Positions 1-51,985 of a stretch of 64,000 nucleotides of DNA are shown here, piece by piece. Origin of the DNA: Streptomyces sp. NBC_00335. Its GTDB lineage: Bacteria > Actinomycetota > Actinomycetes > Streptomycetales > Streptomycetaceae. A model generated the notes under the pieces. It was not told the DNA's origin, ran no database searches, and saw only the letters and a program-made list of their open reading frames with translations. Location: positions 7,989,501 to 8,053,500 of the forward strand of contig NZ_CP108006.1 of NCBI RefSeq assembly GCF_036127095.1. Direction: 5' to 3'. The translations under genes and the position numbers were made by a program. Numbering within the stretch: position 1 is the first letter of the stretch; the number at the start of each line of letters is the position of its first letter.

Positions 1-616
1 AGTGTGCGTAGGCGCGGCGGCGGGGGCGGGCGTCCAGGCCCGCGGTCAGGTTTCCGTGCGCGGCGAGCACGCCCTTGGGCGCGCCGGTGGTGCCGGAGGT
101 GCCGATCACCTGGGCCGGGTCGGCCGGGCCGACCCGGTGCGGCGGACCGGCCGGCGGCTCGGGGTGCGCCGCCAGCAGGTCGTCCAGCCGCAGGTCCACC
201 AGTCCCGGAATGGTGGGCAGGCCGCCTACGCGCTCCTGACCCTCTCCCTCTCCCTCGTCGTCACCGTCCCGCAGGACCGTGCCGGCTCCGGCCAGTGCGG
301 CCAGGGCGGCGGCATCGGCCTCCGACAGGTCCTCACGGACCGGGACCGGTACCCCGCCCGCGTACTGGACGGCGAGGAAGCCGACCGCGTACCGCTCCCA
401 GCGGGCGTTGGAGAACCGCAGCACCACCCGGTCCTGCGGTCCGACCCCGGCGGCGGCCAGCCCGACGGCGGCGCGCAGCGCCTCCTCGCGCCAACGGCCG
501 TAGCTGAGTTCCCCGCCGCCGACGACCTGCAGCGCGAGGTGGTCGGGGTGTTCGGCGGCCCGCGCGTCGAGGAGCTCCGGGACGGTCGTCGCGGCGGGTG
601 GCAGGGTGGTGGCGAT
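1..616 (-). CDS. AMP-dependent ligase, N-terminal part (runs off left edge)
   Basis: This is the N-terminal part (about 205 residues) of a class I adenylate-forming enzyme; the rest lies outside the window. The readable frame has an opening typical of the family (VPELLDARAAEHPDHLAL), then the helix-rich substrate-entry region and the ATP-binding loop near + position 100 (IGTSGTTGAPKG). It follows the stop of the C-A-T NRPS gene by about 50 bases and probably belongs to that operon, loading an acyl or amino acid starter. No ATG, GTG or TTG occurs in frame between the upstream stop and the conserved region. An ATC at 616-614 has a GGAG six bases upstream and is the best-placed start; a CTG at 604-602 is the other option. 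Substrate cannot be judged from this fragment. Confidence 0.8.
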   Translation of the reverse strand, partial: MATTLPPAATTVPELLDARAAEHPDHLALQVVGGGELSYGRWREEALRAAVGLAAAGVGPQDRVVLRFSNARWERYAVGFLAVQYAGGVPVPVREDLSEADAAALAALAGAGTVLRDGDDEGEGEGQERVGGLPTIPGLVDLRLDDLLAAHPEPPAGPPHRVGPADPAQVIGTSGTTGAPKGVLAAHGNLTAGLDARPRRRAYAH

Positions 617-668
617 GGCGGGCTCCGGTGTGATTCGTGGGGAGTGTTCAGGGACGGGGCGGGCAGGA

Positions 669-3600
669 TCAGTCCAGGTGGGCGGCGGCCTCCTCCTCGC
701 TGAGGGCATCGATCTCCGCGACCAGCAGGGCCTCGATCCGGGCCGCCAGGGCTGCCGGGGTGGGGCTCTCGAAGACGTCGCGGATCGACACGTCGAGACC
801 GACGCCGGCCCGGATGCGCGCGGCGACCCGGGTGACCAGGAGCGAGTCCCCGCCGAGGGCGAGGAAGTCGTCCAGTACGCCGACCTTCGGTAGGCCGAGC
901 ACCTCCTGCCAGAGCTCGACCACCAGGGCCTCCGCATCGCTGCGGGGCGCCACGTATCCTGCGGCGCCGCCCGCCGGGTCCGGGTCGGGCAGGGCCGTGG
1001 TGTCGAGCTTGCCGTTGGTGGTCAGCGGGAGGGTGTCCAGCAGCAGCACGGAGTCCGGCACCATGAAGGCCGGCAGCCGCAGCGCCAGGAACTCGCGCAG
1101 TTCGCCCGCCCCCGGCGCGGCTTCGGACCGGTGTCCGGCGGCCGGCCGAAGGACGGCGTACGCGATCAGCCGGCGGCCGTCGCGGACCAGCACGGCCACC
1201 CGGCCGACCGCCGGATGGGCGGTGAGGGCGGCCTCGATCTCGGCGGGCTCGATCCGGTATCCGCGGATCTTCACCTGACCGTCGGCGCGGCCGAGGAACT
1301 CCAGCTGCCCGTCGGCGCGCCACCGGGCGCGGTCGCCGGTGCGGTACATCCGGCCGTCCGGGGCGTCGGTGAACGGATCCGGGAGGAACGCCTCCGCGGT
1401 GAGGTCGGGCCGGGCCGAGTAGCCGCGTGCGAGGCCGCTGCCGCCGATGTACAGCTCGCCCTCGGAGCCGGCGGGCAGCAGGCTGCCGCGCTCGTCCAGG
1501 AGGTAGAGCCGCACCCCCGGCAGCGGACGCCCGAGCGGCGGGCGCCGATCGGCGGCGGACCCGCGACCCGGGCGGGCAGCTACGTCGCCGCCGGGACCGC
1601 CGGCGAGCTCGCCCGCGGTGACGATGACGGTGGCCTCGGTCGGGCCGTAGGTGTTGACCAGCCGGACGGCGTCACCGTGCAGCTCCCGCCACTGGGCGAG
1701 GGCGACGGCCTGCGCCTCGGACCCCCCGAGGACCACCAGGCGCAGCGCCGGCGGCCACGGGGTCTGCTCACCGAGGGACACCAGCTCCTGCCAGTACGCG
1801 GTCGGCAGGTCGAGTACGGTGACGGACCGTCCGGCCTCGCTGCGCAGCAGGTCGGGCAGCATCCGGCCGCCGCCGGGGAGCAGGACGACACAGGCGCCCG
1901 CGGTGAGGGCGGGCCAGATCTCCTCGGCATGGGTGTCGAAGCCGATGGAGGCGAACTGGACGATCCGGTCGCCCGGCCGGAGCCGGTAGCCCTCCGGTCC
2001 GGCCATCCACCGGACGCGTTCGGCCAGGGAGGCGTGCTCGATGGCGACGCCCTTGGGGGTGCCGGTGGAACCCGAGGTGTAGAGCACGTACGCGAGGCCG
2101 TCCGGGGCGCTTCCGGGCAGCGGGGTCCCCGCGGGAGCCGTGCGCCCCGGCTCGATGCCCGCGGGCCCGGCCTGCCCGGTCTCGGTCCTCGGATCGCCGG
2201 CCTTCTGTACGGGGACATCCGGTGCCGGGACTTCCCGTACCCGGACGTCCAGTACCGGGACTCCCAGGTCCGGACGCTCGCCTCCGGTGAGCAGCAGGGC
2301 GGCCTCCGCCTCGCCGAGCATCAGCCGCTGGCGCTCGTCGGGGTGCGCGGGGTCCAGCGGCAGGTAGCCGGCGCCGGCCTTCCAGATGGCCAGCAGGGCG
2401 GTGACCAGTTCGAAGGAAGGCTCGATCCGGACGCCCACGGCGCGGCCGGCCACCGGGCCCAGTCGGCGGGCCAACTCATCAGACGAGCGGTCGAGTTCGA
2501 CGTACGTGAGGACGCGGCCGGCACACTCCAGAGCGGGGGCGTCGGGATGGGCCGCGACCTGACCGGCGAAGCCGAGCAGGATCGGGAGCGCGTCCTCGGC
2601 GACGGCGGGTCCGGCGCCGAGAGCGAGCAGCGCGGCGCGCTCCTCGGGGGCGGGCAGCCAGTCGCCGTGCAGCGCGACCTCCACGTCCACGACGGCCCGG
2701 GTGAGCAGGTCGCGGACCCGGCGCGCCAGGGCCTCGACCGTGGCGCGCTCGAAGAGCTCCCGGTCGAAGCAGAACGACAGCGTCATCCCGCCGTCCGGGG
2801 TGCGCCAACTGTCCAACAGCAGATCGGTCTTGGCCCGGTCGAAACCGGAGTCCATGTCCGCCGTCCGGACGCCCGTGGGCAGCAAGGTCCGCTCGTCGGC
2901 GCCGGCCAGCTCGTATTGGCTCTGGTGGACGAACACCGCCTGGTAGAGCGGGCCGACGCCGGGCAGTACGGGCAGTCCCAGTTCGGCGGCCACCCGCTCG
3001 ACCGGGATGTCCTGATGGTTCAGCGCGGCCATCGTGGCGGAGCGCACCCGGCGCAGCACCGTACGGAAATCGGGCTCGCCGGTGAGGTCCGCGCGGATCA
3101 CCCCGGTGCGGGAGAAGTAGCCGAGCAGGGCCTCGTGGGCGGTCTCGTTACGGCCTGCCAGCGGGGTGCCGACGGCGAAGTCGTAGCAGCCGCTCCAGCG
3201 GGCCAGCACGCTCTGGTAGGCGGCGAGCAGCACCATGAAGGGGGTGCAGCGCTGTTCGCGGGCCAGGGCGTCGAGTCCGGCGACGAGGCCGGGGTCGAGG
3301 GCGAGGTCGGCGAAGCCGGCCGGGTGCGTGGGCTCGGCGGGTCTGGGGTGGTCCAGCGGCATCCGCAGGGCGCTGACACCGGCCAGTCGTTCGCTCCAGT
3401 GATGGACAGCCTGCTCGGCCGCGCCGCCGTCCAGCCTGGTCCGTTCGGCGAGGGCGAACTCGCCGAACTGGAGCTTGAGCTCCGGCAGTTCGGCCCGCCC
3501 CTCGCCGATCTCCTCGCGGTACAGCGCGAGCAGTTCGCGCCACAGCACGGTGAAGGACCAGCCGTCGGAGACGATGTGGTGGACCACCACGCTCAGGGCG

Positions 3601-4034
3601 TGCTCCTGCTCGCCGGCGCTGACCAGGACGACCCGCAGCGGCGGGCGCTCGCCCAGGTCGAAGGGGGCGTTGACGAAGGGGGCGCAGGCCGCGGTGAAGG
3701 ACTCCTCGGCGGTGTCCGGTATCGGGACCAGGGTGAGTACGACCTCCCGTACGGGCTCCACGAGTTGGACGGGATGCTCGCCGTCCAGGGCGAACCGGGT
3801 GCGCAGCACCTGGTGCCTCTCGGTGAGCCGGGTGAGGGCCGCGCTCAGGGCCCGCGGGTCGATCGGACCGCTCCAGCGCCGGTTCAGGTACATGTTGAAC
3901 CCGGCGTCCTCGGGAGCGAGTTGCTGGAGGAACCAGAGGCGGCGCTGCTCGTCGGTCAGCGGATGGCGGGCGATCGGGGCCGGGGCCGGAGTCGGGGCCG
4001 GAGTCGGCGTCGGAGTGGGGATCGGGGAAGTCAT
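669..4034 (-). CDS. NRPS module, C-A-T, substrate unknown
   Basis: An 1121-residue nonribosomal peptide synthetase with one module. The condensation domain occupies about residues 20-450, with the active-site motif HHIVSDGWS near 151. The adenylation domain follows, with its ATP loop (YVLYTSGSTGTPKG) near 655. The carrier domain (LGGDSLL, phosphopantetheine serine) is near 1061. Aligning the A4-A5 region to GrsA by eye gives the ten-residue code DTEDVGTVIK, which I cannot assign to a substrate with confidence. There is no epimerase or thioesterase, so this protein must pass its product to another protein. Its ATG overlaps the stop of the preceding NRPS-MFS gene in an ATGA arrangement, which indicates translational coupling. 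The N-terminus carries a short Pro-Thr-Ala repeat (residues 3-22) before the C domain. Confidence 0.95.
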   Translation of the reverse strand: MTSPIPTPTPTPAPTPAPAPIARHPLTDEQRRLWFLQQLAPEDAGFNMYLNRRWSGPIDPRALSAALTRLTERHQVLRTRFALDGEHPVQLVEPVREVVLTLVPIPDTAEESFTAACAPFVNAPFDLGERPPLRVVLVSAGEQEHALSVVVHHIVSDGWSFTVLWRELLALYREEIGEGRAELPELKLQFGEFALAERTRLDGGAAEQAVHHWSERLAGVSALRMPLDHPRPAEPTHPAGFADLALDPGLVAGLDALAREQRCTPFMVLLAAYQSVLARWSGCYDFAVGTPLAGRNETAHEALLGYFSRTGVIRADLTGEPDFRTVLRRVRSATMAALNHQDIPVERVAAELGLPVLPGVGPLYQAVFVHQSQYELAGADERTLLPTGVRTADMDSGFDRAKTDLLLDSWRTPDGGMTLSFCFDRELFERATVEALARRVRDLLTRAVVDVEVALHGDWLPAPEERAALLALGAGPAVAEDALPILLGFAGQVAAHPDAPALECAGRVLTYVELDRSSDELARRLGPVAGRAVGVRIEPSFELVTALLAIWKAGAGYLPLDPAHPDERQRLMLGEAEAALLLTGGERPDLGVPVLDVRVREVPAPDVPVQKAGDPRTETGQAGPAGIEPGRTAPAGTPLPGSAPDGLAYVLYTSGSTGTPKGVAIEHASLAERVRWMAGPEGYRLRPGDRIVQFASIGFDTHAEEIWPALTAGACVVLLPGGGRMLPDLLRSEAGRSVTVLDLPTAYWQELVSLGEQTPWPPALRLVVLGGSEAQAVALAQWRELHGDAVRLVNTYGPTEATVIVTAGELAGGPGGDVAARPGRGSAADRRPPLGRPLPGVRLYLLDERGSLLPAGSEGELYIGGSGLARGYSARPDLTAEAFLPDPFTDAPDGRMYRTGDRARWRADGQLEFLGRADGQVKIRGYRIEPAEIEAALTAHPAVGRVAVLVRDGRRLIAYAVLRPAAGHRSEAAPGAGELREFLALRLPAFMVPDSVLLLDTLPLTTNGKLDTTALPDPDPAGGAAGYVAPRSDAEALVVELWQEVLGLPKVGVLDDFLALGGDSLLVTRVAARIRAGVGLDVSIRDVFESPTPAALAARIEALLVAEIDALSEEEAAAHLD

Positions 4035-7000
4035 GCGTTCGTCTCGCCTTTCGCGCGGGCCCGCAGGGTCTCCAGGCCGATCAGGTCGTCGGACTCGGCG
4101 TCCGGGACCTCCCGGTCGAAGCGGGCCAGGACGGGGATGCAGAGGCTGATCAGGACCAGAGCGGCCATGGCGAGGCCGAACACCAGGTAGAGCAGGCCGA
4201 TGCCGCGCCCGTCACCGGTGCCGATGAGCGCGCCGACGCTGGAGGCCAGCGCGCCGCCCTCGTCCATCAGGGGCTGGAGCAGCTCGGGGCCGGCCGGGGC
4301 GACGAGGGCGAAGCCGATCGGCAGGGTGGACCAGGCGACCAGGGTGTTCACCGCGATCACCCGGCCGTGGAAGCGCATGGGCACCTTCGTCTGGATGACC
4401 GTGGCGTAGATGCCGTTGAGCAGCGCCAGACCGTAGGTCATGCCGAACGCGCCCGCGGCGACCACGGTCACCGAGGGCCGCAGGCCGGTGACGACGCAGG
4501 CGGCGGCGAGACCGAGGGTGGCGAACAGGACTCCGCGCAGGCGCATCCGGCGCGGGCCTCCCCAGACCAGCAGGGTGAGGCCGCCGAGGACCGCGCCCAG
4601 GCCGGCCGCGGTGGAGACCCAGCCGGCCGCGGCGGTCGAGGAGAAGGAGAGCACCAGCGGGGTGATGAGCAGGAAGAGGGGTGAGAGGAAGATGTTCAGC
4701 GCCGCGAACCAGAACAGCATGGCTCTGAAGTGGCGGCTGCCGAGGGCCCGTTGGAAGCCGGCCCGGATCTCGGCGCCGACGCTCTCGCGGCGGGTGGCGG
4801 CCATCACGTCGGGGAAGCGCACCGCCAGGGTGACCCCGGTGGCGATCAGGTAGCTGACGACGTCGAAGACCAGGATGCCGCCGAGGCCGATCACGTGCAG
4901 GATGCCGACCGCGATGAGCGGTACGAGGAACTGGGCGAGGCCGAGGGCCATCTGGACCACACCGTTGGCGCGTCCGAGGAAGCGCTTGGGCACCAGCTGC
5001 GGTACCGCCGAGCCCCAGGCGACGCGCTGGAAGGCGAGTGCGGCGGAGAGCAGGGAGATCATCACGTAGCAGTGCCAGATCTCCAGCGAGCCGCTGAGGT
5101 AGAGCACCAGCAGGGCCGCCTGGGTCAGGCCGGCCGCGACGTCGCCCCACAGCATCACCCGGCGGCGGTCGCCGCGGTCGACGATGGCGCCGGCCAGCGG
5201 GGCGACCACGATGCCGGGCACCAGGCCGAAGGCGGCGAGCATGCCGAGCTGGAACAGCGAGCCGGTCTGCAGGTAGATCCAGATGGGCAGGGCGAACTCG
5301 GTGAGCGCCGAGCCGATCATCGAGAGCTGCTGGCCGGTGGCGATGGCCAGGAACCGGCCCATGGTCGGGCGGACGGGGCGGCGCTCGCGTGCCCTGCGGG
5401 ATGCGCCCGGCTTCCCGGGCGCCGGCTCGGGTTCCGGAACGCGTCCAGGCTCGGGTGCCGGAACGTGTCCAGGCTCGGGTTCCGGAACGTGTCCCGGCGC
5501 GAGAGCCGGATCCGTTCCGGTGGTGTCGCGGGAGAGGCCGGCCAGCCACCAGGTGGCGTCGGCGGTGGGCCCGTGCCGCGCCTCCTCGCCGGCGGCGATC
5601 GAGCGGTGCACCCCGGTCAGGATGTCGGCCAACTCCTCGGCGCGGTACTTGAGGTAGAAGTGCCCGGCCTCGTCCAGGACCACCACGGCGGCGGTCCCGG
5701 TGATCCGGTGCCACTCGCGGAACCGCTCCTGGTAGAACTCGGTCGCCGGATCGCGGTCGCCGCAGACGGCGATCACCGGCGCCGAGATGGCGCCGCCCTC
5801 GCTCTCGTACAGTTCGCCGAAGTAGCGCTCGGCGCCCTTGGTGCCGACCCGGCGGTTGTGCACGATCAGCCGCAGCTGCTCCTCGTCGACCTCGTCCACG
5901 TCCAGGCCCGCCGAGGCCAGGGCGTTGATCATGCCCTGGTCGCTGCGCAGGCGGGCGGCCAGCTCGGCGAAGCGCTCGGCCATCGCGGCGCCGCGGCCCT
6001 TCGGGCGGGCGAAGGGGAAGATCCCCCCGAGGTGGACGGCGTCGATCTCCCGGCCGGACGCCTCCACCCGGCGGGCGATCTCCACGGTCAGCCGGACGCC
6101 GACCCCGCAGTGCCCGTAGAGCACCAGAGGTCCGGCCACGTTCGCGACGATCTCCTCGGCGCAGAGCCGGGCGACCTCGTCGATGTCCATCGCCTCCTCG
6201 CCCAGCTCGTGGCCGGGGACGGCGATGGAGTGCAGGGCCCAGTCCGCCGGCATGGCGTCGGCGAGCGGCTTGTAGATCAGTGCGCTGCCGCCGCCGTAGG
6301 GGGCGCAGACGACGGTGGCGGCCGCCTTGCGGCGCTCGGGGGTGAGCAGGTGCAGCAGCCGGCGCGGTCCGCGGTCCGCCTCGGGCGTGGCCACCAGTTC
6401 GGCGAGCCGGCGGACCGTCGGGTACTTGAAGAGGTCCATCACGCCGACCGGGGTGGCCAGGTCGGGGAAGGCCCGGCGCATCCGGGCCACCACCTGCGTG
6501 GCGAGCAGGGAGTGGCCCCCGAGCTCGAAGAAGTCGTCCAGTGCGCCGACCCGGGGGAGGTCCAGCAGGTCCGCCCACATGGCGGCGATCACCTGCTCGG
6601 TCCCCTCCTCGGGGTCTACGTGGCCGCCTGCGGACGGGCCGTCCGCAGGCGCCGGCAGCGCCTTCCGGTCGACCTTGCCGTGGGCGAGCAGCGGCAGCCG
6701 CTCCAGCACCACGTAGCGGGCCGGAACCATGTAGTCCGGCAGCACCTCGCCCAGCACGGCGCGCAGTTCGGCGGCGGCCGGAGGTTCGCCGCCGGCGGGG
6801 CGTTCCAGGTAGGCGACGAGGTTCTGCTTGACGCCCTCGCCGCGGGCCATGACCAGCGCCTGGGTGATCCCGGGCAGCGCGGTCAGCGCGGCCTCGATCT
6901 CGCCGGGCTCGACCCGGTAGCCGCGGACCTTGATCTGGTCGTCGCCGCGGCCGAGGTACTCCAGGGTTCCGTCCGCGCGCCAGCGCGCCAGGTCGCCGGT

Positions 7001-9778
7001 GCGGTACATCCGCGGGCCGCCGGTCGCCGCACCCCCTGGGCCCGCGCCGTACGGGTCGGCCGCGGACGGCTCCGCTCCGGCCGCTTCCGCTTCTACCGGT
7101 TCCGCTACGGCCGGTTCCGCTCCGGCGGGGGCGGCGTACGGATCGGGCAGGAACCGCTCGCCGGTCAGGTCCGGCCGCCCGAGGTAGCCCCGGGCCAGCC
7201 GGTCCCCGCCCAGGTACAGCTCACCGGTGACGCCCGGCGGAACGGGGTTGCGGGCTTCGTCCAGCACGTAGCAGCGCGCGCCGGCGAGCGGGCTGCCGAT
7301 CGGGGTGCTGCCCGGCGCGTTCAGGCCGTCGGCGGTGACCTCGTGGACGGTGATCCCCACCGTCGCCTCGGTCGGCCCGTAGTGGTTGAACACCGCGCAA
7401 CGGCCCAGTGCGGCGATCCCAGCCGCCCAGGACCAGCTGCTCGCCTCGCCGCCGAGGACCAGCGTACGGCGCGGCAGGAGCCGCTCCAGCGGTACGTCGG
7501 CGGTCAGCGCGGCCAGGTGGGAAGGGGTCATCTTCAGGTGGTCGATGCCGGCCCGCTCGATCTCCGCGGCCAGTTCCACGCCCGCGATCCGGCGCGGCAG
7601 CAGGTGCACCCGGCCGCCGGTCGTGAGCGCCAGGTAGAGCATCGTCATGCTGAAGTCGAAGGAGAGCGACTGAAGCAGCCCGAAGGAGCCCCCGGGCTCG
7701 ATCCGCAGCCGATCGCCCGCGCCCGCCAGGTAGTTGAGGATCTGGCGGTGCTGCACGGCGACGCCCTTGGGTGCTCCGGTGGAGCCCGAGGTGTAGATCA
7801 CGTACGCCAGGTGGTCGGCGCCCGAGACCTCCTCCAGCGGCGTTCCGTCCCACTCCGCCGCGTCGTCCGCGTCGCCCCCGTCACCGTCGCCGATGTCGGC
7901 GCCTGTGTCGCCGGTCAGCAGATCGACGGCCGGGTGGTCGCCGAACCGCGGTCGCAGCACGGCGTCGGTGATCAGGACCTTGGCTCCGGAATCGGCGACC
8001 AGGCGGGCGAGCCGCGCGGGGGGCTGCTCGGGGTCGAGCGGCAGGTAGCCGCCACCGGCCTTGAGCACGGCGACCAGGGCGACCGCCAGCTCGGGGGACT
8101 GCTCCAGGCAGACGGCCACCCGGTCGTCCGCACCCACGCCCAGCGCCCGCAGGCGCCGGGCCATCGCGTTGGCGCGCCGGTCGAGGCCGCCGTAGGTCAG
8201 CGTGCGGTCCTCGAAGACCAGTGCGGGCGCCTCGGGCGTCCGGGCCGCCGCCTCGGCCAGCGCCTGTGTGAGCGTGGCGGGGCCGTCCACCGGTAGCGCG
8301 GGGCCGGTGGCCCAGGTCTCCAGTACGGCCGTCCGCTCGGCCGCGCCGAGCAGCGGGAGCCGGTCGACCGGCAGTGCCGGATCGGCGACGCCGGCGGCGG
8401 TCAGCAGCTCGAACCGCTCGGCGAGGCGCTCGACGGTGCCGGCGTCGAAGAGGTCGGTGCGGTAGGTGAACAGACCGTAGAGGCCGCCGTCCGGTTCCTC
8501 GCGCATGTAGAGGGCGAGGTCGGCGTGGGTGGTGGTGGCCTCGTAGCCGAAGCCCTCGGAGTCCAGGCCCCCGGCAGGGGTGGTGGCGCGGTCGCCGTAG
8601 TTCTGGAAGGCGAAGGTGGTCTGGAAGACGGCGGCGCGGCTGACGTCGCGTTCCACCGCGAGATCGCCCACCATCTGCTCGAACGGCACCTCCTGGTGCG
8701 CGTACGCGTCGAGCGTGGTCTCGCGGACCCGGCTGATCAGCCGGCCGAAGTCGAGCCCTTCGGAGAGCCGGGCGCGGATCGGCAGCATGTTGACGAAGGC
8801 GCCGACCACGCCTTCGAGTTCACGGTGGAGACGGCCGGCGACGGCGGAGCCGACGGCGAAGTCGCGCTGGCCGGCGTGCCGGCCCAGCAGGGCCTGGAAC
8901 GCGGCCATCAGCACCATGTACGTGGAGGCCCCGTAGGCGCGGGCCAACTCGCCTATCCCGCTGCATAGTTCGGGGCTCCAGTGGAACTCGGTGGCGGCCC
9001 CGTCGAAGGTGAAGAGCGGCGGGCGGGGCCGGTCGGTGGGCAGCTCCAGGGCCGGGACGCCGTCGAGCTCCCTGAGCCAGTGCTCGCGGGAGGCGGCGAG
9101 CTGCCCGTTCGCCAGACGGGCCTGCTGCCAGGCCGCGTAGTCACCGAACTGGACCGGCAGGGTTGGCAGTTCGAGAGAGGCGCCGTGGGCGTGGTGGGCG
9201 TAGAGGAGGTCGAGCTCGCGGTTGAGGAGGTCGATCGACCAGCCGTCGCAGATGATGTGGTGCATCACCAGGGCCAGTACGTGGTCGTCCTCCGCGATCC
9301 GGACCACCAGGGCGCGCAGCAGCGGACCGGTCTGCAGGTCGAAGGGTTCGGCGATCATCGCCCCGAGTTCGGCGGCGGCGCGTGCCTGCGGATCCGGGTC
9401 CGCGACGGCGTCCAGGTGCTGGGCGGCGAACGGCGCCGGCTCGGCGACCCGGACCTCGGCGGTGCCGGCCTCGGTGGTGCGGAAGGTCATCCGCAGGCTC
9501 TCGTGCCGGGCCACCAGGCCGGTCAGCGCGGCGTCCAGCGCGGCGCGGTCGAAGGGGCCTCGGAGCCGGCGGGCCGGCGCCAGTGTGTATGCCGTGGAGC
9601 CGGGGGCGAACTGGTCCATGAACCAGAGCCGTTCCTGGCCGCTGGAGAGCGGCGGTGCGCTGCCCGTCGGGCGGGGGTCCACCACCCGGGCGGGGGCCGA
9701 GGCGCCGCGCAGCCGCCGGCTGAGGAGGGCGCGCTTGACTGCGGACCAGTCGGCGGGCAGGTCCTGGGTATCCGTCAT
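4031..9778 (-). CDS. NRPS C-A-T-thioesterase fused to MFS exporter
   Basis: This 1915-residue protein joins peptide assembly, release and export in one chain. Order: condensation domain (HHIICDGWS near residue 175), adenylation domain (TSGSTGAPKG near 660), carrier domain (LGGHSLL near 1090), alpha/beta-hydrolase thioesterase (about 1130-1370), a linker of PEPEPGHVP-like repeats (about 1395-1440), then a major facilitator transporter (about 1470-1890) with many hydrophobic segments and a loop-2 motif (GAIVDRGDRR). The thioesterase nucleophile elbow reads GHCGVG, so residue 1224 is Cys where Ser is usual; candidate Asp (CGDRDP) and His (EAGHFY) partners are present. The hand-aligned adenylation code is DFTKVGHVGK, close to the published aspartate code DLTKVGHIGK. 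As the only gene here with a releasing domain, it should be the terminal module. ATGA-coupled to the next gene. Confidence 0.95.
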   Translation of the reverse strand: MTDTQDLPADWSAVKRALLSRRLRGASAPARVVDPRPTGSAPPLSSGQERLWFMDQFAPGSTAYTLAPARRLRGPFDRAALDAALTGLVARHESLRMTFRTTEAGTAEVRVAEPAPFAAQHLDAVADPDPQARAAAELGAMIAEPFDLQTGPLLRALVVRIAEDDHVLALVMHHIICDGWSIDLLNRELDLLYAHHAHGASLELPTLPVQFGDYAAWQQARLANGQLAASREHWLRELDGVPALELPTDRPRPPLFTFDGAATEFHWSPELCSGIGELARAYGASTYMVLMAAFQALLGRHAGQRDFAVGSAVAGRLHRELEGVVGAFVNMLPIRARLSEGLDFGRLISRVRETTLDAYAHQEVPFEQMVGDLAVERDVSRAAVFQTTFAFQNYGDRATTPAGGLDSEGFGYEATTTHADLALYMREEPDGGLYGLFTYRTDLFDAGTVERLAERFELLTAAGVADPALPVDRLPLLGAAERTAVLETWATGPALPVDGPATLTQALAEAAARTPEAPALVFEDRTLTYGGLDRRANAMARRLRALGVGADDRVAVCLEQSPELAVALVAVLKAGGGYLPLDPEQPPARLARLVADSGAKVLITDAVLRPRFGDHPAVDLLTGDTGADIGDGDGGDADDAAEWDGTPLEEVSGADHLAYVIYTSGSTGAPKGVAVQHRQILNYLAGAGDRLRIEPGGSFGLLQSLSFDFSMTMLYLALTTGGRVHLLPRRIAGVELAAEIERAGIDHLKMTPSHLAALTADVPLERLLPRRTLVLGGEASSWSWAAGIAALGRCAVFNHYGPTEATVGITVHEVTADGLNAPGSTPIGSPLAGARCYVLDEARNPVPPGVTGELYLGGDRLARGYLGRPDLTGERFLPDPYAAPAGAEPAVAEPVEAEAAGAEPSAADPYGAGPGGAATGGPRMYRTGDLARWRADGTLEYLGRGDDQIKVRGYRVEPGEIEAALTALPGITQALVMARGEGVKQNLVAYLERPAGGEPPAAAELRAVLGEVLPDYMVPARYVVLERLPLLAHGKVDRKALPAPADGPSAGGHVDPEEGTEQVIAAMWADLLDLPRVGALDDFFELGGHSLLATQVVARMRRAFPDLATPVGVMDLFKYPTVRRLAELVATPEADRGPRRLLHLLTPERRKAAATVVCAPYGGGSALIYKPLADAMPADWALHSIAVPGHELGEEAMDIDEVARLCAEEIVANVAGPLVLYGHCGVGVRLTVEIARRVEASGREIDAVHLGGIFPFARPKGRGAAMAERFAELAARLRSDQGMINALASAGLDVDEVDEEQLRLIVHNRRVGTKGAERYFGELYESEGGAISAPVIAVCGDRDPATEFYQERFREWHRITGTAAVVVLDEAGHFYLKYRAEELADILTGVHRSIAAGEEARHGPTADATWWLAGLSRDTTGTDPALAPGHVPEPEPGHVPAPEPGRVPEPEPAPGKPGASRRARERRPVRPTMGRFLAIATGQQLSMIGSALTEFALPIWIYLQTGSLFQLGMLAAFGLVPGIVVAPLAGAIVDRGDRRRVMLWGDVAAGLTQAALLVLYLSGSLEIWHCYVMISLLSAALAFQRVAWGSAVPQLVPKRFLGRANGVVQMALGLAQFLVPLIAVGILHVIGLGGILVFDVVSYLIATGVTLAVRFPDVMAATRRESVGAEIRAGFQRALGSRHFRAMLFWFAALNIFLSPLFLLITPLVLSFSSTAAAGWVSTAAGLGAVLGGLTLLVWGGPRRMRLRGVLFATLGLAAACVVTGLRPSVTVVAAGAFGMTYGLALLNGIYATVIQTKVPMRFHGRVIAVNTLVAWSTLPIGFALVAPAGPELLQPLMDEGGALASSVGALIGTGDGRGIGLLYLVFGLAMAALVLISLCIPVLARFDREVPDAESDDLIGLETLRARAKGETNA

Positions 9779-9913: not shown

Positions 9914-12900
9914 CTACAGGCGTTCGCGGACGGCGGCGGCGATGCCGGCCGGGGTCGGAACGTCGAAGAAGACGTCGAAGTCCAGTTCCACGCCGAGCGC
10001 GTCACGGATCCGGGAGGCGATCTGGATCACCGTCAGCGAGTGCCCGCCGAGGTCGAACAGGTCGTCCTCGGGGCCCACGTCGGGGAGGTTCAGCACCTCG
10101 GCCCAGATCCGGCGGACCGTTCCGGTGGTCTCGTCACCGGCATCGGCTGCCCGTGGCGCCGGCGCCGCCTCGCGCGGCGGTACCGGCAGGGCCCGCCGGT
10201 CCAGCTTGCCGTTCGGGGTGAGCGGCAGGCGCTCCACGGTGAGCCAGCGCTGCGGCGCCATCGCGGCCGGCAGCGTGCGCAGCAGATGTTCGCGCAGATC
10301 GGAGGGGGCGGGCGCCGGGGCGCCGGCGGCCGGGACCAGGTAGCCCGCCAGGAACGGCTCGCCGTCCTCCTCGGTGCGGACGGCCACGGCGGCCTGGGCG
10401 AGGGCCGGGTGCTCCAGCAGGGCGGACTCGATCTCGCCGAGTTCGATCCGGTGGCCGCGGATCTTGACCTGGTCGTCGATCCGGCCGAGGAAGTCGAGCT
10501 CGCCGTCAGGCGTCCGGACGGCGCGGTCCCCGGTGCGGTAGAGCCGGGCTCCGGGCGGGCCGAACGGGCTCTGCACGAAGCGCTCGGAGGTGAGTTCGGG
10601 CCGGCCGAGGTAGCCGTGAGCGACCCCGTCCCCGCCGATCAGCAGCTCTCCGGGGATGCCGAGCGGGGTGGGCCTCAGCTGCTCGTCGACGATGTAGACC
10701 TGGGTGTTGGCGATCGGGGTGCCGATCCTGACGTGGCCGGGATCGGCGGGGAGCTCGGAGCAGGTGGACCAGATGGTGGTCTCGGTGGGCCCGTACACAT
10801 TGAACAGCCGGGCGGTGCGCGCCCGCAGTTCGCGGGCGAGCGGCAGCGTCAGCGCCTCGCCGCCGGCCAGGCCGGTGACGGCGGCGAGGGCGTCGGTGGC
10901 GCTCCCCGCCGCGAGCATCACCCTCCATCCGGACGGGGTGGCCTGTACATGGGTGACGTCCTCGGCGCCGATCAGCGCGAGCAGGCCTGGTCCGTCGACG
11001 GCGAGGCCGTCCGGGGCCAGGACCAGGCGGCCACCGGTGATCAGCGGCAGGTAGAGCTCCAGCGCGGAGATGTCGAACGAGAGCGAGGTCAATCCGAGCC
11101 AGGCGTGCCGGGGGCCCGAGTCGAGCCGGTCGGCGAAGGAGGTGAGCAGGTTGACCAGTGCCCGGTGCCCGACCGCGACGCCCTTGGGGCGGCCCGTGGA
11201 GCCCGAGGTGTAGAGGACGTACGCCACATCGTCCGGACCGGGGGCGGCGCCGTGGTCGGCGTCGGGTGCGGCCTCGGCCGGGTCCTGCGCCGACGGCGCC
11301 GGGAGCCGTAGGACCGCTGGAGCGGCGGCGGCGACCAGTGGCGCGGGCTCGCGGTCGGCGAGCACCAGAACGGCTGCGGAGTCGCGCAGGACGAGGGCGA
11401 GGCGCTCGGCCGGATAGCCCGGGTCCAGCGGCAGGTAGGCCGCGCCGGTGGCGAGGACGGCGAGCAGCGCGGCGGGCAGGTCGGCGGTACGGTCCAGGTG
11501 GACGGCGACCAGGTCGCCGGGTCTGACGCCGCCGGCGCGCAGTGCTGCGGCCAACTGGTCTGTACGGGCCAGTAGTTCGCGGTAGCCGAGGTGGCGGCCG
11601 GCAGCGCTGACCGCGATCGCCTCGGGGGTGGCGGCGGCCTGGGCGCGGATCAGGTCGAGCACGGTCCGGTCGGTCGGATAGGGGCGGGCCGTGGCGTTCG
11701 GCCCGGTGGTGACGGCCCGGAGCTCGGCGGCGTCCAGCAGCGGCAGGTCCAGCAGCCGGGCACCGGGGTCGGCGACCGCCCCGGCGAGCAGGGTGTTGTA
11801 GTGGCCGGCGATCCGGCGGGCGGCGTCCGGGGCGAGCACGGCCGGGTCGTACTGCAGGCTGAAGTCGAGGCCGCCGCTCAGGGCGTCGCCGCTCTTGGGG
11901 GCTTCGACGATCTGGAGGTGGAGGGTGTTGCGGGCGGTGCGGTGGTGCACGGCCCAGGCGATCCGGGCACCGGTGCCGGCGAAGTCCGGGTCAGGGCCGC
12001 GCCGGCGGTAACCGAGGGAGACGGCGGTCAGGCCGACGCGGGGGCTCAGCCCGGAGACGGCGGCGCCGAAGGGCACGCCGCGGTACGGGTAGCCGGCCCG
12101 CAACTCGGCCCGTACGGCGGCGGCGAAGGCCGTGAAGGTCTGTGAGGCATCGGCCGCGGGCGCGTGGACGGGCAGTTCATTGACGAACAGCCCTACTTCC
12201 CCGGTGAGTTCGCGCGTCCGAGTGGAAAGCGGAACGGACACCGGAACCGCCTCGCCGCCGTACCGGCGCAGCAGCCCGTGCAGGGCCGCGAGCAGGAACT
12301 CGAAGACCGTGGTGCCGCCGAGGGCGGCCGTGGCGGCCAACTCGCGTGCCTCGGCGCCGTCGAGACTCCACTCGACCGTCTCGCCTGCCCCGGCGACGGT
12401 CGGGGTGCGCGATACACCGGGCAGCACCGGGTCGGTGGCGGCGGCCCAACGCGGCCCGTACCACTCGGCAGCCCTCCGTACGGTGGCCGGATCCTCGGCC
12501 GGTGAGGCGGGTGCGGTGGTCGAGGGAGAGGGAAGGGGCGCCGCGCCGTACGCGGCTGCGAGGTCCCGGGTCAGCACGTCCTTGGAGTTGCCGTCGAAGA
12601 CCGAGTGGTGCGCGGTGACCAGCAGTTCGGCACTGCCGTCGGAGCGCCGGTGCAGGGTGAAGCGGCTGAGCGGGCCGGTCTCCAGGGTGAACGGACGGGC
12701 AGCCTCCTCCTCCAGCCGCTTCTCCAGGTCGGCCTCGTCTTCGGGCGCTTCGAGCTGCACCAGTTCGGGCTGCTGCGCCGCGGGTTCCTGCCACACCCGG
12801 CCGTCACACTCGACCAGCCGCGCGGCCAGAGCCGGATGCCGCCCGATGACGGCGGCCACCGCGCGGACCAGGGCCGCCGTGTCGATCCGGTCGAAGGAGA

Positions 12901-13015
12901 TCCGCACCGGCATGTGGAACGCCTCGCGGGCCAGTCCCAGCCGCTCGGTGAGCCAGACGCCCTGCTGGGCCGGCGAGGCGGGTCTGCGGTCGGGCAGGGG
13001 GAGGACTTCGGACAT
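9914..13015 (-). CDS. NRPS module, C-A-T, glycine-type specificity
   Basis: A 1033-residue one-module synthetase and the first gene of the visible operon. The condensation domain opens near residue 10 and carries HHSVFDG near 137. The adenylation domain has TSGSTGRPKG near 607 and the A4 motif SFDISALELY. The carrier domain has LGGHSL near 990 and ends the protein. The hand-aligned code DILQLGVIWK differs by one residue from the published glycine code DILQLGLIWK, so glycine is the likely substrate. A condensation domain sits at the N-terminus with no upstream carrier in the same protein, so it accepts an acyl or peptidyl group from another protein. The start ATG has only a weak upstream AGTGAG. 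No MbtH-like gene was seen in the window. Confidence 0.95.
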   Translation of the reverse strand: MSEVLPLPDRRPASPAQQGVWLTERLGLAREAFHMPVRISFDRIDTAALVRAVAAVIGRHPALAARLVECDGRVWQEPAAQQPELVQLEAPEDEADLEKRLEEEAARPFTLETGPLSRFTLHRRSDGSAELLVTAHHSVFDGNSKDVLTRDLAAAYGAAPLPSPSTTAPASPAEDPATVRRAAEWYGPRWAAATDPVLPGVSRTPTVAGAGETVEWSLDGAEARELAATAALGGTTVFEFLLAALHGLLRRYGGEAVPVSVPLSTRTRELTGEVGLFVNELPVHAPAADASQTFTAFAAAVRAELRAGYPYRGVPFGAAVSGLSPRVGLTAVSLGYRRRGPDPDFAGTGARIAWAVHHRTARNTLHLQIVEAPKSGDALSGGLDFSLQYDPAVLAPDAARRIAGHYNTLLAGAVADPGARLLDLPLLDAAELRAVTTGPNATARPYPTDRTVLDLIRAQAAATPEAIAVSAAGRHLGYRELLARTDQLAAALRAGGVRPGDLVAVHLDRTADLPAALLAVLATGAAYLPLDPGYPAERLALVLRDSAAVLVLADREPAPLVAAAAPAVLRLPAPSAQDPAEAAPDADHGAAPGPDDVAYVLYTSGSTGRPKGVAVGHRALVNLLTSFADRLDSGPRHAWLGLTSLSFDISALELYLPLITGGRLVLAPDGLAVDGPGLLALIGAEDVTHVQATPSGWRVMLAAGSATDALAAVTGLAGGEALTLPLARELRARTARLFNVYGPTETTIWSTCSELPADPGHVRIGTPIANTQVYIVDEQLRPTPLGIPGELLIGGDGVAHGYLGRPELTSERFVQSPFGPPGARLYRTGDRAVRTPDGELDFLGRIDDQVKIRGHRIELGEIESALLEHPALAQAAVAVRTEEDGEPFLAGYLVPAAGAPAPAPSDLREHLLRTLPAAMAPQRWLTVERLPLTPNGKLDRRALPVPPREAAPAPRAADAGDETTGTVRRIWAEVLNLPDVGPEDDLFDLGGHSLTVIQIASRIRDALGVELDFDVFFDVPTPAGIAAAVRERL

Positions 13016-27120: not shown

Positions 27121-28023
27121 TCAGCTCACCGGGGTGAAGTCCCGCGAGGCGATGTATCCGGGGCGGCGCACCGGGGCGGCGAAGGGCTTCGACGGGCGGT
27201 TCTCGACGCTGTTGAAGACGAGGAACACGTTGCTGCGCGGGTAGGGCGTGATGTTGTCACCCGAACCGTGCATCGCGTTGCAGTCGAACCAGGTGGCCGA
27301 ACCCGCCTTGCCGGTGAAGAGCTTGATGCCGCAGGCCGAGGCGAACTGGGTCAGCGCCTCGTCCGACGGGGTGCCCGCGTCCTGCATCCGGAGGGACTTC
27401 TTGTAGTTGTCCTTCGGCGTCGCACCGGCGCAGCCCAGGAAGCTCCGGTGGGAGCCGGGCATGATCATCAGGCCGCCGTTGGTGGAGTGGTTCGGCGTCA
27501 GGGCGATGGACACCGACACGGTGCGCATGTGCGGCAGGCCGTCCTCGGCGTGCCAGGTCTCGAAGTCGGAGTGCCAGTAGAAGCCGCTGGCGCCGAAACC
27601 GGGCTTGACGTTGATGCGGGACTGGTGCACGTACACCTCGGATCCCAGGATCTGCCGCGCACGCCCCGCGACGCGCGGATCGGCGGCGAGGGCCGCGAAC
27701 ACCTCGCTGATCCGGTGGACTTCGAAGACGGAGCGCACTTCCCGTGACTTCGGCTCCACGATGGACCGCTCGTCGGCGAGCGTCGAGGGGTCACGGAGCA
27801 GCCGGTCCATCTCGGCCCGGTAGACCTCCGTCTCCTCGGGCGTGATGAGTTCCTCGACGGACAGGAAACCGTCGCGCTCGTAGCTCTCCAGCTCGTGGGC
27901 CCATATCGGGCCCGGCGTGCCGGGATCGGACCAGACGACGGGGTCCACGCGGCCGCTGAGCACCTCCTCGGAGCCCCGGGTCGGATACAGGTCGTTCACC
28001 GTGCGTATGGATGCGGAGGTCAT
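27121..28023 (-). CDS. ectD: Ectoine hydroxylase EctD
   Basis: A 300-residue non-heme Fe(II)/2-oxoglutarate dioxygenase that turns ectoine into 5-hydroxyectoine. The EctD signature [15 protein letters not shown] is present with iron ligands His151 and Asp153; the third ligand is in NAMHGSGDN, and the Arg that holds 2-oxoglutarate is in PYPRSNVF. Length matches the family. It is the last gene of ectABCD, 73 bases after ectC, with a terminator after it, so the strain should make both ectoine and hydroxyectoine as salt, heat or desiccation protectants. The gap to ectC holds a GTGCGAGTGCGAGTGCG simple repeat near 28,060. Confidence 0.97.
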
Positions 28024-47740: not shown

Positions 47741-48042
47741 CGCGGACCTCCCTCGCCGCCATCGCCACCGTCGGCGGCATCGGCCGCGAGCTCCCACGGG
47801 TCGCCGAACTCCTCCTGGAGCATGCCGAGTTCCGCGAACAGCTCAAGAGTCTGCTTGGCCGACTCCTCGTCGAGACGCTGCAGGGCGAAGCCCACGTGGA
47901 CGATGGCGTACTCGCCGACCCGGAGGTCGGGCAGGTACTCCAGGCACACCTCCTTCTGTACGCCGCCGAAGTCGACGGTGGCCATGCGGGTGCCGTCCTT
48001 GTCCGCGATGTCAAGCACTCTGCCGGGTACCGCCAAGCACAT
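47737..48042 (-). CDS. hypC: Hydrogenase maturation chaperone HypC
   Basis: A 101-residue member of the HypC/HupF family. It opens [12 protein letters not shown], with the essential Cys2 that carries iron between HypD and the large subunit. The rest ([34 protein letters not shown], by position 22-55) is typical, with an Asp/Gly-rich end. Overlaps hypF by 32 bases and hypD by four. Confidence 0.97.
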
Positions 48043-50422
48043 GGGCCTCTCCTCGCTGTGGGGGGTCGGTGGCGCCGCGGGCGGCCGCCACCATGAGCTG
48101 ACCGAGTGCCAGCCCGCCGTCGTTCGGCGGGACCTGGCGGTGCCGCAGTACGGTGAAGCCGCGCTCGCGCAGCGCGCGGGCGCATGCCGAGGACAGCAGG
48201 GTGTTGGCGAAGACCCCGCCGGTCAGCGCCACCGTGTCCAGTCCGTGCCGCTCGCGGGCCAGGACGCACAGGTCGGCGACGAGCGCGGTGGCGGCGTCGT
48301 GGAAGCGGGCCGCGATCACGGACGGATCCACCCCTGCCCGCACGTCGGAGACCACCGACACCAGCAGGGGCGCCGGATCCGCGGTGACGGGACCCTCGCC
48401 GCCGGGAGCGGGGGAGTCCAGGGTGAAGGCGTACGGACCGGGGCCGGGATCCGCCGCCGCTTGCCGCACCCGTCCCGTCGCCCGCAGTGCGGCGGACTCC
48501 AGCTCCATGGCGGCCTGGGCCTCGTACCCGGATCGCTGGCAGATGCCCGCCAGTGAGGACACGGCGTCGAAGAGGCGTCCCATGCTGGAGGTCGGCACGC
48601 AGTTCAGGCCGAGCTCCAACTGCCTTGCCAAGAGCCGGAATTCATCCTCCGGGCAGCTGATCGCGCAGGGCAGGTCCGGATCCCAGGCGATGCCCGCCGC
48701 CCGCAGGTGCGACAGGGCCATCCGGTACGGCCGGTGCACCGCGGCGTCGCCGCCGGGCAGCGGCACGTAGGCGAGGTGGGCGAAGCGGGTGTACCCGGCG
48801 TAGTCGGCGAGGAGCACCTCGCCGCCCCACACCGCGCCGTCGTCCCCGTAGCCGGTGCCGTCGAACGCGACGCCGATCACCCGGCGGGCGCCGTCCAGGC
48901 CGTGTTCGGCCAGCGCCGACGCGATGTGCGCGTGATGGTGCTGTACGCGCACCAGCGGCCGGCCCCCCGCGTTGCGGACGGCCCACCGGCCCGACCGGTA
49001 CCCGGGATGACGGTCGGCGGCCAGCAGGACGGGCGCGACCCCGGTGACGGACTCCAGCTGTCCTCCGGCCCGTTCGAAGGCCATCTGGGTCGCCAGGTCG
49101 TCCATGTCGCCGATGTGCGCGGACAGCCAGGCCCGGCGGCCCTCCCCGAGGCAGAGGGCGTTCTTCAGATCGCCCCCCGTCGCCAGCGTCGCGGGAACCG
49201 GAAACGGCAGCGGCAGCGGCAGCGGGGCGTAGCCGCGCGAGCGCCGGACCAGCAGCGGGGCGCCGTCGCAGACCCGCACCACGGAGTCGTCGCACGGCAC
49301 GTGGATGGGCCGGTCGTGCGTGAGCCAGCCGTCGGCGATCCCGGCCAGCCGCTCCAGGGCCTCGCCCTCCTCGGTGACGATGGGCTCGCCCGCGAGGTTC
49401 CCGCTGGTCATGACGAGCAGGGTGGGCCCCGGGGGATCGCCGGGCAGCCCGAACAGCAGGTGGTGGAGCGGGGTGTACGGGAGCATGACGCCGAGGTCGG
49501 GGCTGCGCGGAGCGACCTCCTCGGCCGCTCCGGGGACCCCGGCCCGCCTGCGGAGCAGCACGATGGGCCGGACGCCGCCGGTGAGCAGGGCACGCTCCTC
49601 CGGGCCGATGTGTGCCAGCCGCTCGGCCGCGGCGAGGTCGCGCGCCATCACGGCGAACGGCTTGTCACCGCGGGACTTGCGCCGGCGCAGCTCCGCCACG
49701 GCCTCCGGACGGGTGGCATCGCAGGCCAGGTGGTAGCCGCCGAGCCCCTTGACCGCCAGGATCGCGCCCCGGGCCAGCATGCGGCGTGCTTCGGCGACCG
49801 GATCCGTACCGGTGAGCTCGTACCGGTCCCGCCCGCCGTCGGCGACCAGCAGCCGCAGCCGGGGACCGCAGGCCGGGCAGGCGACGGGCTGCGCGTGGAA
49901 GCGCCGGTCGGCCGGATCGGCGTACTCGCGGGCGCAGTCGGGGCACATCGGGAAGCCGGCCATGGTGGTGTGCGCGCGGTCGTAGGGCAGTCCGGTGACG
50001 ATCGTGAAGCGGGGACCGCAGTGCGTGCACGTGATGAAGGGGTGGCGGTGGCGGCGGTCGGCCGGATCCGCCATTTCCGCGAGGCAGGCGGCGCACGTGG
50101 CCGTGTCCGGGGAGACCAGGGTCCGGGACGGGCCGCCGCTCCGGGAGGCGATGATCGCGAATCCGGCGCCGCCGACCACCGGCACCTCGCAGTGGTCCAC
50201 GGTGTCCACCACGGCCAGTGGCGGTGCGTCCGCCGCGAGGCGCTCGCAGAACGCGGAGACGGCGGCGGCCGCCCCCTCGATCTCGGTCACCACTCCCTCG
50301 GGCGTGTTGGTGACGTGCCCGGCCAGACCGAGTCCCGTCGCGCGGGCGTAGACGTACGGCCGGAAGCCGACGCCCTGCACCACGCCCTGGACGGTGACCC
50401 GGCGGCGCTGCACGGACTCCAT
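48011..50422 (-). CDS. hypF: Hydrogenase maturation carbamoyltransferase HypF
   Basis: An 803-residue protein that uses carbamoyl phosphate and ATP to load a carbamoyl group on HypE. Domains in order: acylphosphatase (VVQGVGFRPYVY, residues 1-90), zinc fingers with four CxxC pairs (about 105-195), YrdC-like (about 205-390) and Kae1-like (about 400-790), with HHHAHIASALAEH as metal site. Full length. Start ATG shares one base with the hypB stop (TGATG). Confidence 0.97.
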   Translation of the reverse strand: MESVQRRRVTVQGVVQGVGFRPYVYARATGLGLAGHVTNTPEGVVTEIEGAAAAVSAFCERLAADAPPLAVVDTVDHCEVPVVGGAGFAIIASRSGGPSRTLVSPDTATCAACLAEMADPADRRHRHPFITCTHCGPRFTIVTGLPYDRAHTTMAGFPMCPDCAREYADPADRRFHAQPVACPACGPRLRLLVADGGRDRYELTGTDPVAEARRMLARGAILAVKGLGGYHLACDATRPEAVAELRRRKSRGDKPFAVMARDLAAAERLAHIGPEERALLTGGVRPIVLLRRRAGVPGAAEEVAPRSPDLGVMLPYTPLHHLLFGLPGDPPGPTLLVMTSGNLAGEPIVTEEGEALERLAGIADGWLTHDRPIHVPCDDSVVRVCDGAPLLVRRSRGYAPLPLPLPFPVPATLATGGDLKNALCLGEGRRAWLSAHIGDMDDLATQMAFERAGGQLESVTGVAPVLLAADRHPGYRSGRWAVRNAGGRPLVRVQHHHAHIASALAEHGLDGARRVIGVAFDGTGYGDDGAVWGGEVLLADYAGYTRFAHLAYVPLPGGDAAVHRPYRMALSHLRAAGIAWDPDLPCAISCPEDEFRLLARQLELGLNCVPTSSMGRLFDAVSSLAGICQRSGYEAQAAMELESAALRATGRVRQAAADPGPGPYAFTLDSPAPGGEGPVTADPAPLLVSVVSDVRAGVDPSVIAARFHDAATALVADLCVLARERHGLDTVALTGGVFANTLLSSACARALRERGFTVLRHRQVPPNDGGLALGQLMVAAARGATDPPQRGEAHVLGGTRQSA

Positions 50423-51336: not shown

Positions 51337-51339
51337 GGG

Positions 51340-51753
51340 TCAGGCCTCCTCGGAGATCGGGGCTCGGCAGGGGGCCAGGGCGGCCGCGGCACCTTCGGTG
51401 GACGGCGCGTCCTCCCAGGTGACCGTCAGGATGCGGAGCTCGCGCCCGGAGAGCAGCTCCACCTCCGTGGCCCTGCCGCACGTGGGACAGCACAGGTCGG
51501 GGGGCATCCCCACGGCCCAGTCGGCCGTGCAGGCGCCGCAGCGCGCGCGGGCCGGCACTGACCGGACGACGAGCTCGGCCCCTTCCAGGACCGTTCCGGC
51601 GCAGGCCAGTTCGAAGCAGAAGCCGAGTGCGTCCGGGACCACTCCGGCCAACTCGCCGACCTGGAGCTCCACTCGGCTCACGGTGCTGCCGGCCTCCGGG
51701 GCCGCCTCTTCCACCTGGCCCACGACGGCCATGGCGATCGACATCTCGTGCAT
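51340..51753 (-). CDS. hypA: Nickel chaperone HypA
   Basis: A 137-residue protein with the conserved start MHEMSIA (His2 binds nickel) and a zinc site of two CxxC pairs (CGAC near 73, CPTC near 90). It hands nickel to the large subunit together with HypB. The C-terminus is longer than usual. First gene of the hypABFCDE block; a hairpin lies between it and the small gene upstream. Confidence 0.97.
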   Translation of the reverse strand: MHEMSIAMAVVGQVEEAAPEAGSTVSRVELQVGELAGVVPDALGFCFELACAGTVLEGAELVVRSVPARARCGACTADWAVGMPPDLCCPTCGRATEVELLSGRELRILTVTWEDAPSTEGAAAALAPCRAPISEEA

Positions 51754-51829
51754 CGGATTCGGTCTCCGTCCTGCCGGGGCTCATTACACCGGCAGGACCG
51801 GGGCGGCACGGCCGGGCACGCCGGGAGCC

Positions 51830-51867
51830 CGTACGCCCCGTACTCCATTCGGAGGCCGGGGCGTACG
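51830..51867 (-). terminator. 11-bp hairpin between hydrogenase and hyp gene blocks
   Basis: CGTACGCCCCG (51,830-51,840) pairs with CGGGGCGTACG (51,857-51,867) over 16 bases, four bases after the stop of the 34-residue gene and 77 bases before hypA. It could part-terminate or process the long transcript. Confidence 0.6.
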
Positions 51868-51870
51868 CGT

Positions 51871-51975: not shown

Positions 51976-51985
51976 GGGGTGCTCC

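Follow-up and report, generated by a model that had tools for sequence, protein, structure and literature searches.

A nonribosomal peptide synthetase module joined to an ObiF1/SulM-like cysteine thioesterase and a tethered major facilitator transporter in Streptomyces

Results

We analysed a window of 64,000 nucleotides from Streptomyces sp. NBC_00335 (assembly GCF_036127095.1, contig NZ_CP108006.1, positions 7,989,501 to 8,053,500), in which four nonribosomal peptide synthetase (NRPS) genes, NRPS1 to NRPS4, lie on the reverse strand (Table 1). NRPS2 encodes in one chain a condensation (C), an adenylation (A) and a carrier (T) domain, a thioesterase (TE) and a transporter of the major facilitator superfamily (MFS). 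The Pfam matches to the five parts come in this order, each above its curated cut-off, with AMP-binding at residues 508-866, its C-terminal part at 960-1035 and MFS_1 at 1483-1816. The first four parts form a C-A-T-TE termination module with its core motifs intact. A homologue search with residues 1140-1915 of NRPS2 (7992 candidates scored) returned 1144 proteins at E ≤ 0.001; counts out of 120 given below rest on the 120 of these matches that were listed, and those out of 121 on the same proteins with NRPS2 itself included. In 121/121, both histidines of HHxxxDG as well as its Asp and Gly are invariant, as is the carrier-domain GGHS. The original prediction, made from this DNA alone, had read an NRPS module, a TE and an MFS transporter in one protein, and the open frame of 1915 residues with its ordered domains bears this out.

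Is the fusion real, or were two genes joined through a frameshift or a misassembly? All 120 listed homologues, with lengths of 1788-1961 residues, carry the C, A, T, TE and MFS Pfam domains, and 76 of the 80 TE loci that were fetched continue in frame from the TE into the MFS domain. In NRPS2, third-position GC, taken in blocks of 60 codons, stays at 0.92-1.00 across TE and MFS and drops only for the linker block, to 0.75. Codon 1473, where the MFS part has its first ATG, is not preceded by any sequence resembling a ribosome-binding site, as judged by eye. A joining error near 5,360-5,500, which the original prediction had named as its own possible undoing, is ruled out by the identical fusion in the listed homologues and by the in-frame loci, and we give such an artefact practically no chance. 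Indeed, NCBI already names such proteins 'non-ribosomal peptide synthetase/MFS transporter' (several among the matches listed). These have the same C-A-T-TE-MFS order with no architectural difference from NRPS2, reach 95% identity over TE-MFS, and the records examined name no product. The listed fused homologues come from Streptomyces, Kitasatospora, Streptacidiphilus, Streptosporangium, Sphaerisporangium, Microbispora and others. In the open-access literature, subscription journals being mostly outside the scope of the search, searches aimed at the fusion or at this TE class in actinomycetes found no paper on the fusion.

A candidate for a second fusion in the same genome, an MFS match within a 1805-residue open frame on contig C2, was rejected and taken as a separate MFS gene, because the NRPS upstream of it has its own stop codon, roughly 1 kb ahead of the match and in a different frame. 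This region (C2:232296-254010) holds an NRPS of 6101 residues that ends, by eye, in a release domain like a beta-lactamase or penicillin-binding protein, followed by the MFS gene, and is an unfused counterpart of the NRPS2 arrangement.

The TE elbow of NRPS2 reads GHCGVG, and Cys1224, Asp1343, His1373 and His1223 are invariant in all 121 aligned proteins; the elbow and its numbering had been predicted exactly. By sequence, ObiF1 is the best of 12 PDB matches (85.6 bits), with BorB at 61.8, RifR at 46.6 and the SulM TE at 40.9 bits. An AlphaFold model of the TE (predicted template modelling score, pTM, 0.82) was closest to ObiF1 with both Foldseek and VIA; SulM came second, ahead of RifR, RedJ or BorB, the RifR fold lying within 3 Z units. 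Cys1224, Asp1343 and His1373 align to ObiF1 Cys1146, Asp1254 and His1284 (correspondence by counting), and Gly1252 aligns to ObiF1 Gly1173. In ObiF1, the catalytic Asp1254 lies on a later strand and Gly1173 replaces the usual Asp (PMC6668435); the SulM paper describes this Asp position as unique to ObiF1 and SulM among NRPS TEs and as present in some type II TEs (PMC11298585). The NRPS2 TE has the Cys nucleophile, the later-strand Asp and the nearest fold of this type; the Gln-Cys-Asn motif given for SulM in the same text is absent from it and His-Cys-Gly stands instead. From alignment and model together, the NRPS2 TE is ObiF/SulM-like, with hydrolytic type II TEs as its next relatives.

How close are the characterised systems? 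ObiF (obafluorin NRPS; PDB 6N8E, PMC6668435), whose Cys-TE forms a beta-lactone, shares the Cys, later-strand Asp, Gly and His with NRPS2 and, as predicted for the NRPS2 line, is fed by an acyl group that is not an amino acid. They differ in the last residue, which carries a beta-hydroxyl in ObiF whereas the A domain of NRPS2 reads Asp-type, and downstream of the TE, where ObiF has MbtH-like and aryl-A parts and NRPS2 has its transporter. The SulM TE (sulfazecin NRPS; PDB 8W2C/8W2D, PMC11298585), which forms a beta-lactam, shares the Cys and the Asp at 'position II', whereas no sulfotransferase is found among the widely shared genes of the NRPS2 line. The comparison with characterised cysteine TEs that the original prediction called for thus ends on ObiF1 and, by fold, on SulM. 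RifR, RedJ and BorB are close in fold, and RifR and RedJ have the same triad geometry; all three are stand-alone editing hydrolases, whereas the NRPS2 TE lies within a terminal module and has a Cys nucleophile. Within the family, the Gly1252 position is Ala in 29/29 paralogues with Ser specificity letters. Arg1258 was rejected as an Asp-binding residue, since Arg or Lys also stands there in 29/29 Ser-type TEs; Arg1309 is Arg in 22/24 Asp-type and 0/29 Ser-type TEs, follows the tree, is not placed in the model and is a lead only.

The MFS part scored 73.1 bits for MFS_1 (PF07690; cut-off 33.4) and 42.3 bits for MFS_3 (cut-off 27), while residues 1476-1831 reached 168 bits for the NCBIfam MFS family 2A0121, below its curated cut-off of 319.6. 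Hydropathy gave 12 peaks, and the helices of an AlphaFold model match 12 spans if the 55-residue helix 459-513 of the model is counted as two and short helices are omitted; at pTM 0.55, this model does not resolve how the TE is oriented relative to the mouth of the transporter. Foldseek with the TE-MFS model returned ObiF1 first, followed by LmrP, MdfA, YajR and other MFS transporters, so that the check on fold and helix count suggested in the original prediction turned out in its favour. With twelve helices, an intact motif A and this fold, the part resembles other MFS_1/MFS_3 transporters, from which it differs in being covalently joined behind an NRPS thioesterase. The Asp and Arg of motif A are invariant in 75/75 fused members. 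Distances between MFS parts track those of the C domain (rho 0.752) and the TE (0.715) more than those of the A domain (0.509), and 0 of 300 permutations reached any of these values.

The linker between TE and MFS varies in length (47-145 residues by one measure, 14-131 between the ends of the hidden Markov model matches). It contains a WW pair in 58/77 fused paralogues, and a TWWL motif soon after the TE (residues 1409-1412, window 5543-5554) is invariant in 21/21 aligned proteins. As encoded, TE and MFS are tethered in one chain. The original prediction went further and let the product pass from assembly to export without leaving the protein; the tether stands, but a linker of variable length is a tether and not a channel, and that part of the claim exceeds the evidence. 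MFS proteins usually have a cytoplasmic N-terminus, which would place the TE on the required side of the membrane.

We compared the locus with 12 relatives found in GTDB contigs, an orthologue being at least 55% identical over 400 residues. NRPS2 has an orthologue in 12/12; some misses for the other NRPS genes reflect contig ends or the extent of the sequence fetched, whose flanks run some 3 kb past the NRPS genes. NRPS4 lies reversed in one relative (L019). In our window, the start of NRPS3 overlaps the stop of NRPS2 by 4 bases, and NRPS4 starts near 669, its exact position not being settled. Besides the four NRPS genes, no gene of the window neighbourhood is widely shared among the 12 relatives, and no hydroxylase is found among the widely shared genes; further shared open frames in the comparison fall within the NRPS genes themselves. 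A PhyH-type oxygenase gene at window 27121-28023 lies far from the NRPS genes and is not among the shared neighbours. A 502-residue gene adjoins NRPS4 in 3/12 relatives (L014, L015 and L018) and has a DUF4246 domain in both that were scanned (L014, L018). DUF4246 we take to be possibly oxygenase-like, and these three relatives could modify a residue with it. In the genome of strain NBC_00335, a search run without a positive control gave no DUF4246 match.

What would the line assemble? The A domain of NRPS2 and its 120 listed homologues has the specificity letters DFTKVGHVG (108), DFTKIGHVG (10) or DFTKLGHVG (3). In paralogues, the positions used gave DVWHxSLxD, the textbook letters for Ser. 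A literature search for the specificity letters found no paper, and residue assignments here, including Asp for DFTKVGHVG, are those we take to be established, except where a paper is cited; the NRPS2 letters read as Asp and not as the 2,3-diaminopropionate of SulM. The letters DTEDVGTVI of NRPS3 share Glu at position 3 and Thr at position 7 with PosA, an A domain for a diamino acid. Position 2 is Thr in NRPS3 and Ala in the paralogue cluster of genome G619, and Ala is also given for the Lys enzymes in the PosA paper (PMC10522769). The A domain of NRPS4 resembles acyl/aryl-CoA ligases, and the Asp typical of A domains for amino acids is replaced by Asn; its expected substrate is therefore an acid lacking an alpha-amino group. 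One paralogue cluster (G062) is laid out as a single polypeptide T-C-A(Gly)-T-C-A(basic)-T. From the letters of the line, the NRPS4 starter and this domain order, the predicted chain is acyl-Gly-basic-Asp. In a Ser-type paralogue cluster of G062 (L170, 9310-11252), E1-dehydrogenase-like alpha and beta genes lie beside a stand-alone acyl-AMP ligase and perhaps make the starter acid.

Is the fused TE common beyond this locus? A search with the TE alone covered four overlapping genome sets and found some match at E ≤ 0.001 in 59 of 61 genomes of the genus set, matches at E ≤ 1e-24 in 31 of 293 (order set) and 23 of 394 (class set), and matches at E ≤ 1e-100 in 3 of 61 (relatives set). Some genomes, such as G612 and G619, hold five fused copies. 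The nucleophile is Cys in 75 and Ser in 5 of the 80 fetched loci. We tabulated 108 TEs including NRPS2 from 80 + 39 stretches, 12 of 119 loci being left out for an unreadable A domain or too low a TE score; the stretches were chosen by score, and the counts are not frequencies. Cys-TEs with MFS number 71 and Ser-TEs with MFS 5; without MFS there are 22 Cys, 9 Ser and 1 other. On a tree of these 108 TEs (quick method, midpoint root, long-branch warnings), the nucleophile changes four times and MFS presence changes once, with a fused clade of 76 rows at SH-aLRT 93, below the starred level of 95. Since MFS presence changes once, a single fusion event probably gave rise to the many paralogues.

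By A letters, the fused Cys-TEs comprise 29 with Ser letters, 24 with Asp-type GHVG letters (NRPS2 included), 8 with DLPKVAEVG, seven other Asp-like sets and the single cases DFLKIASVA, DMPQVGLVW and DLYNLSLIW; outside this group, DMYNFGLIH and DIWQSTADD were given no residue assignment. DLYNLSLIW, found at the terminal A domain of L134 (G463:C128), we take to be a Cys code, which would bring a thiol next to the thioester. All five Ser-TEs of the fused clade (L146-L150, from G538, G577, G481, G577 and G393; family f19) read GHSSVG with the basic letters DTEDIGT(V/I)I and are nested within the Ser-terminated, Cys-TE part of the tree on branches with SH-aLRT 85 to 99. That the change from Cys to Ser goes with a basic last residue is a hint only, because it is one event; the pairing would make chemical sense, as the SulM Cys-to-Ser variant hydrolyses its product quickly (PMC11298585). 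In one genome (L174-L176, G538:C8:1105000-1164999), two different C-A-T-TE-MFS proteins lie within about 20 kb, one with Ser letters and a Cys-TE, the other with basic letters and a Ser-TE.

Elsewhere in the window, a NiFe hydrogenase region spans 48011-60835, with HypF at 48011-50422, the large subunit at 55845-57629 and, at 58874-60835, a formyl-transferase/enoyl-CoA-hydratase fusion that is HoxX-like by domain make-up.

Table 1. Features of NRPS2 and its partner genes (window positions unless stated otherwise)
Feature	Position	Strand	Basis or conservation
NRPS2, C-A-T-TE-MFS fusion, 1915 residues	4031..9778	-	one unbroken open frame and Pfam domains
Condensation domain, residues 43-483, HHxxxDG present	8330..9652	-	Pfam and alignment
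Adenylation domain, residues 508-1035, letters DFTKVGHVG (Asp-type)	6674..8257	-	Pfam and specificity letters
Carrier (T) domain, residues 1063-1129, GGHS	6392..6592	-	Pfam and alignment
Thioesterase domain, residues 1155-1387, ObiF1/SulM-like Cys-TE	5618..6316	-	Pfam, sequence and fold matches
Cys1224, TE nucleophile in GHCGVG elbow	6107..6109	-	invariant in 121/121
Asp1343, triad acid, ObiF1/RifR position	5750..5752	-	invariant in 121/121
His1373, triad histidine	5660..5662	-	invariant in 121/121
Variable tether from TE to MFS, residues ~1391-1472, conserved TWWL at 1409-1412	5363..5608	-	
MFS transporter part, residues ~1473-1900, 12 transmembrane segments, motif A intact	4079..5362	-	
NRPS1, C-A-T, letters DILQLGVIW (Gly)	9914..13015	-	orthologue in 11/12 relatives
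NRPS3, C-A-T, letters DTEDVGTVI (basic)	669..4034	-	orthologue in 11/12 relatives
NRPS4 (5' part), acyl-AMP-ligase-like A, T, C	1..669, on to genome C1:7986979	-	orthologue in 9/12 relatives
DUF4246-type gene directly downstream of NRPS4 in relatives	L014 19239-20747; L015 18995-20503; L018 18873-20384		

Discussion

We consider it rather likely that NRPS2 acts as the last module in a line of four proteins and releases its product through an ObiF1/SulM-like TE beside a tethered exporter. What the sequences themselves show is the order of the domains, catalytic residues that are all in place, a fusion common to the whole family, the class of the TE and the four genes shared with relatives. NRPS2 would receive an N-acyl dipeptide thioester, predicted to be acyl-Gly-basic, add an Asp-type residue and pass the chain to Cys1224, and release would take place beside the MFS exporter of the same chain. 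The Cys-bound chain would then leave by non-hydrolytic capture, for instance by a side chain of the product and not by water, a step to which we give a slightly better than even chance. Several observations weigh against this reading. An Asp-type last residue offers neither a beta-hydroxyl nor a beta-amine; four C domains face three amino acids and one acyl group, which leaves one C domain unexplained; the hydrolytic type II TEs RifR, BorB and RedJ rank just below ObiF1 and SulM, and the triad geometry of NRPS2 and ObiF1 is also present in hydrolytic type II TEs (PMC6668435, PMC11298585). Moreover, non-fused TEs with the letters DIWQSTADD split into 4 Cys, 8 Ser and 1 other, so nucleophile identity does not simply follow the substrate. 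With this split and one change in the fused clade, a general rule by which Cys would mark a side-chain nucleophile on the last residue was not established.

The general idea of the original prediction was partly right. Its strained release agrees with an ObiF1/SulM-like Cys-TE of ObiF1 triad geometry, but the case for a beta-lactone is weak for NRPS2 itself: its A letters are Asp-type, its TE lacks the Gln-Cys-Asn motif of the beta-lactam TE, and the widely shared genes include no hydroxylase, although the possibly oxygenase-like DUF4246 gene adjoins NRPS4 in 3/12 relatives. Cyclisation by another route is possible, and Ser- or Cys-terminated paralogues would be better strained-ring candidates than NRPS2.

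Could water release the chain after all? A TE of type II-like descent would then free a linear acyl-tripeptide acid for export by the tethered MFS part, which we judge a real possibility though on the less probable side. The RifR-like geometry common to type II TEs (PMC6668435, PMC11298585), the close ranks of RifR, RedJ and BorB, the Asp-type terminal A domain and the lack of a widely shared hydroxylase all fit such a hydrolysis; the Cys nucleophile, in 121/121 aligned homologues and 75/80 fetched loci, does not, nor does the fact that both nearest characterised TEs by fold close four-membered rings. The product might also be thought a siderophore. Some catechol siderophores contain a cationic residue together with Ser, and the exporter EntS belongs to the MFS; an aryl-acyl-Gly-basic-Asp/Ser product with an EntS-like exporter in the same chain would suit the acyl/aryl-CoA ligase-like starter domain, with its Asn for the Asp of amino-acid A domains, and the matches to MFS_3 above and 2A0121 below cut-off. 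We hold this to be improbable: no iron box with up to 3 mismatches was matched in the window, a result only as good as the consensus used; nothing but NRPS genes is widely shared; and the triad geometry of the NRPS2 TE differs from that of EntF (PMC6668435). About as improbable, in our view, is an MFS part that serves as a membrane anchor or sensor, placing the synthetase at the membrane without exporting its product. The variable linker length would allow it, but the invariant motif A residues and the divergence that follows C and TE are what a functional transporter adapted to its product should show, and we infer that the MFS part pumps out the product of the NRPS2 line.

A broader reading of the family, which we put forward as unlikely when all its parts are taken jointly, would give the C-A-T-TE-MFS class a single origin as a maker of small reactive rings, namely beta-lactones, beta-thiolactones and cyclic anhydride or imide equivalents from terminal Ser, Cys, Asp and Asn. 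Export would be immediate because a reactive product would harm the producer, and the TE would have turned from Cys to Ser where the last residue switched to a basic one and the ring chemistry was lost.

In summary, the parts of NRPS2 are known and its architecture already has an automatic database name. The finding adds a large group of actinomycete proteins to the ObiF1/SulM class of TEs, for which the SulM paper counts two NRPS members only (PMC11298585). Release and a transporter are linked here within a single chain, and the family contains a natural exchange of Cys for Ser that can be compared. Should such Cys-TEs indeed form strained rings, paralogues ending in Ser or Cys would be targets for new beta-lactones or beta-thiolactones.
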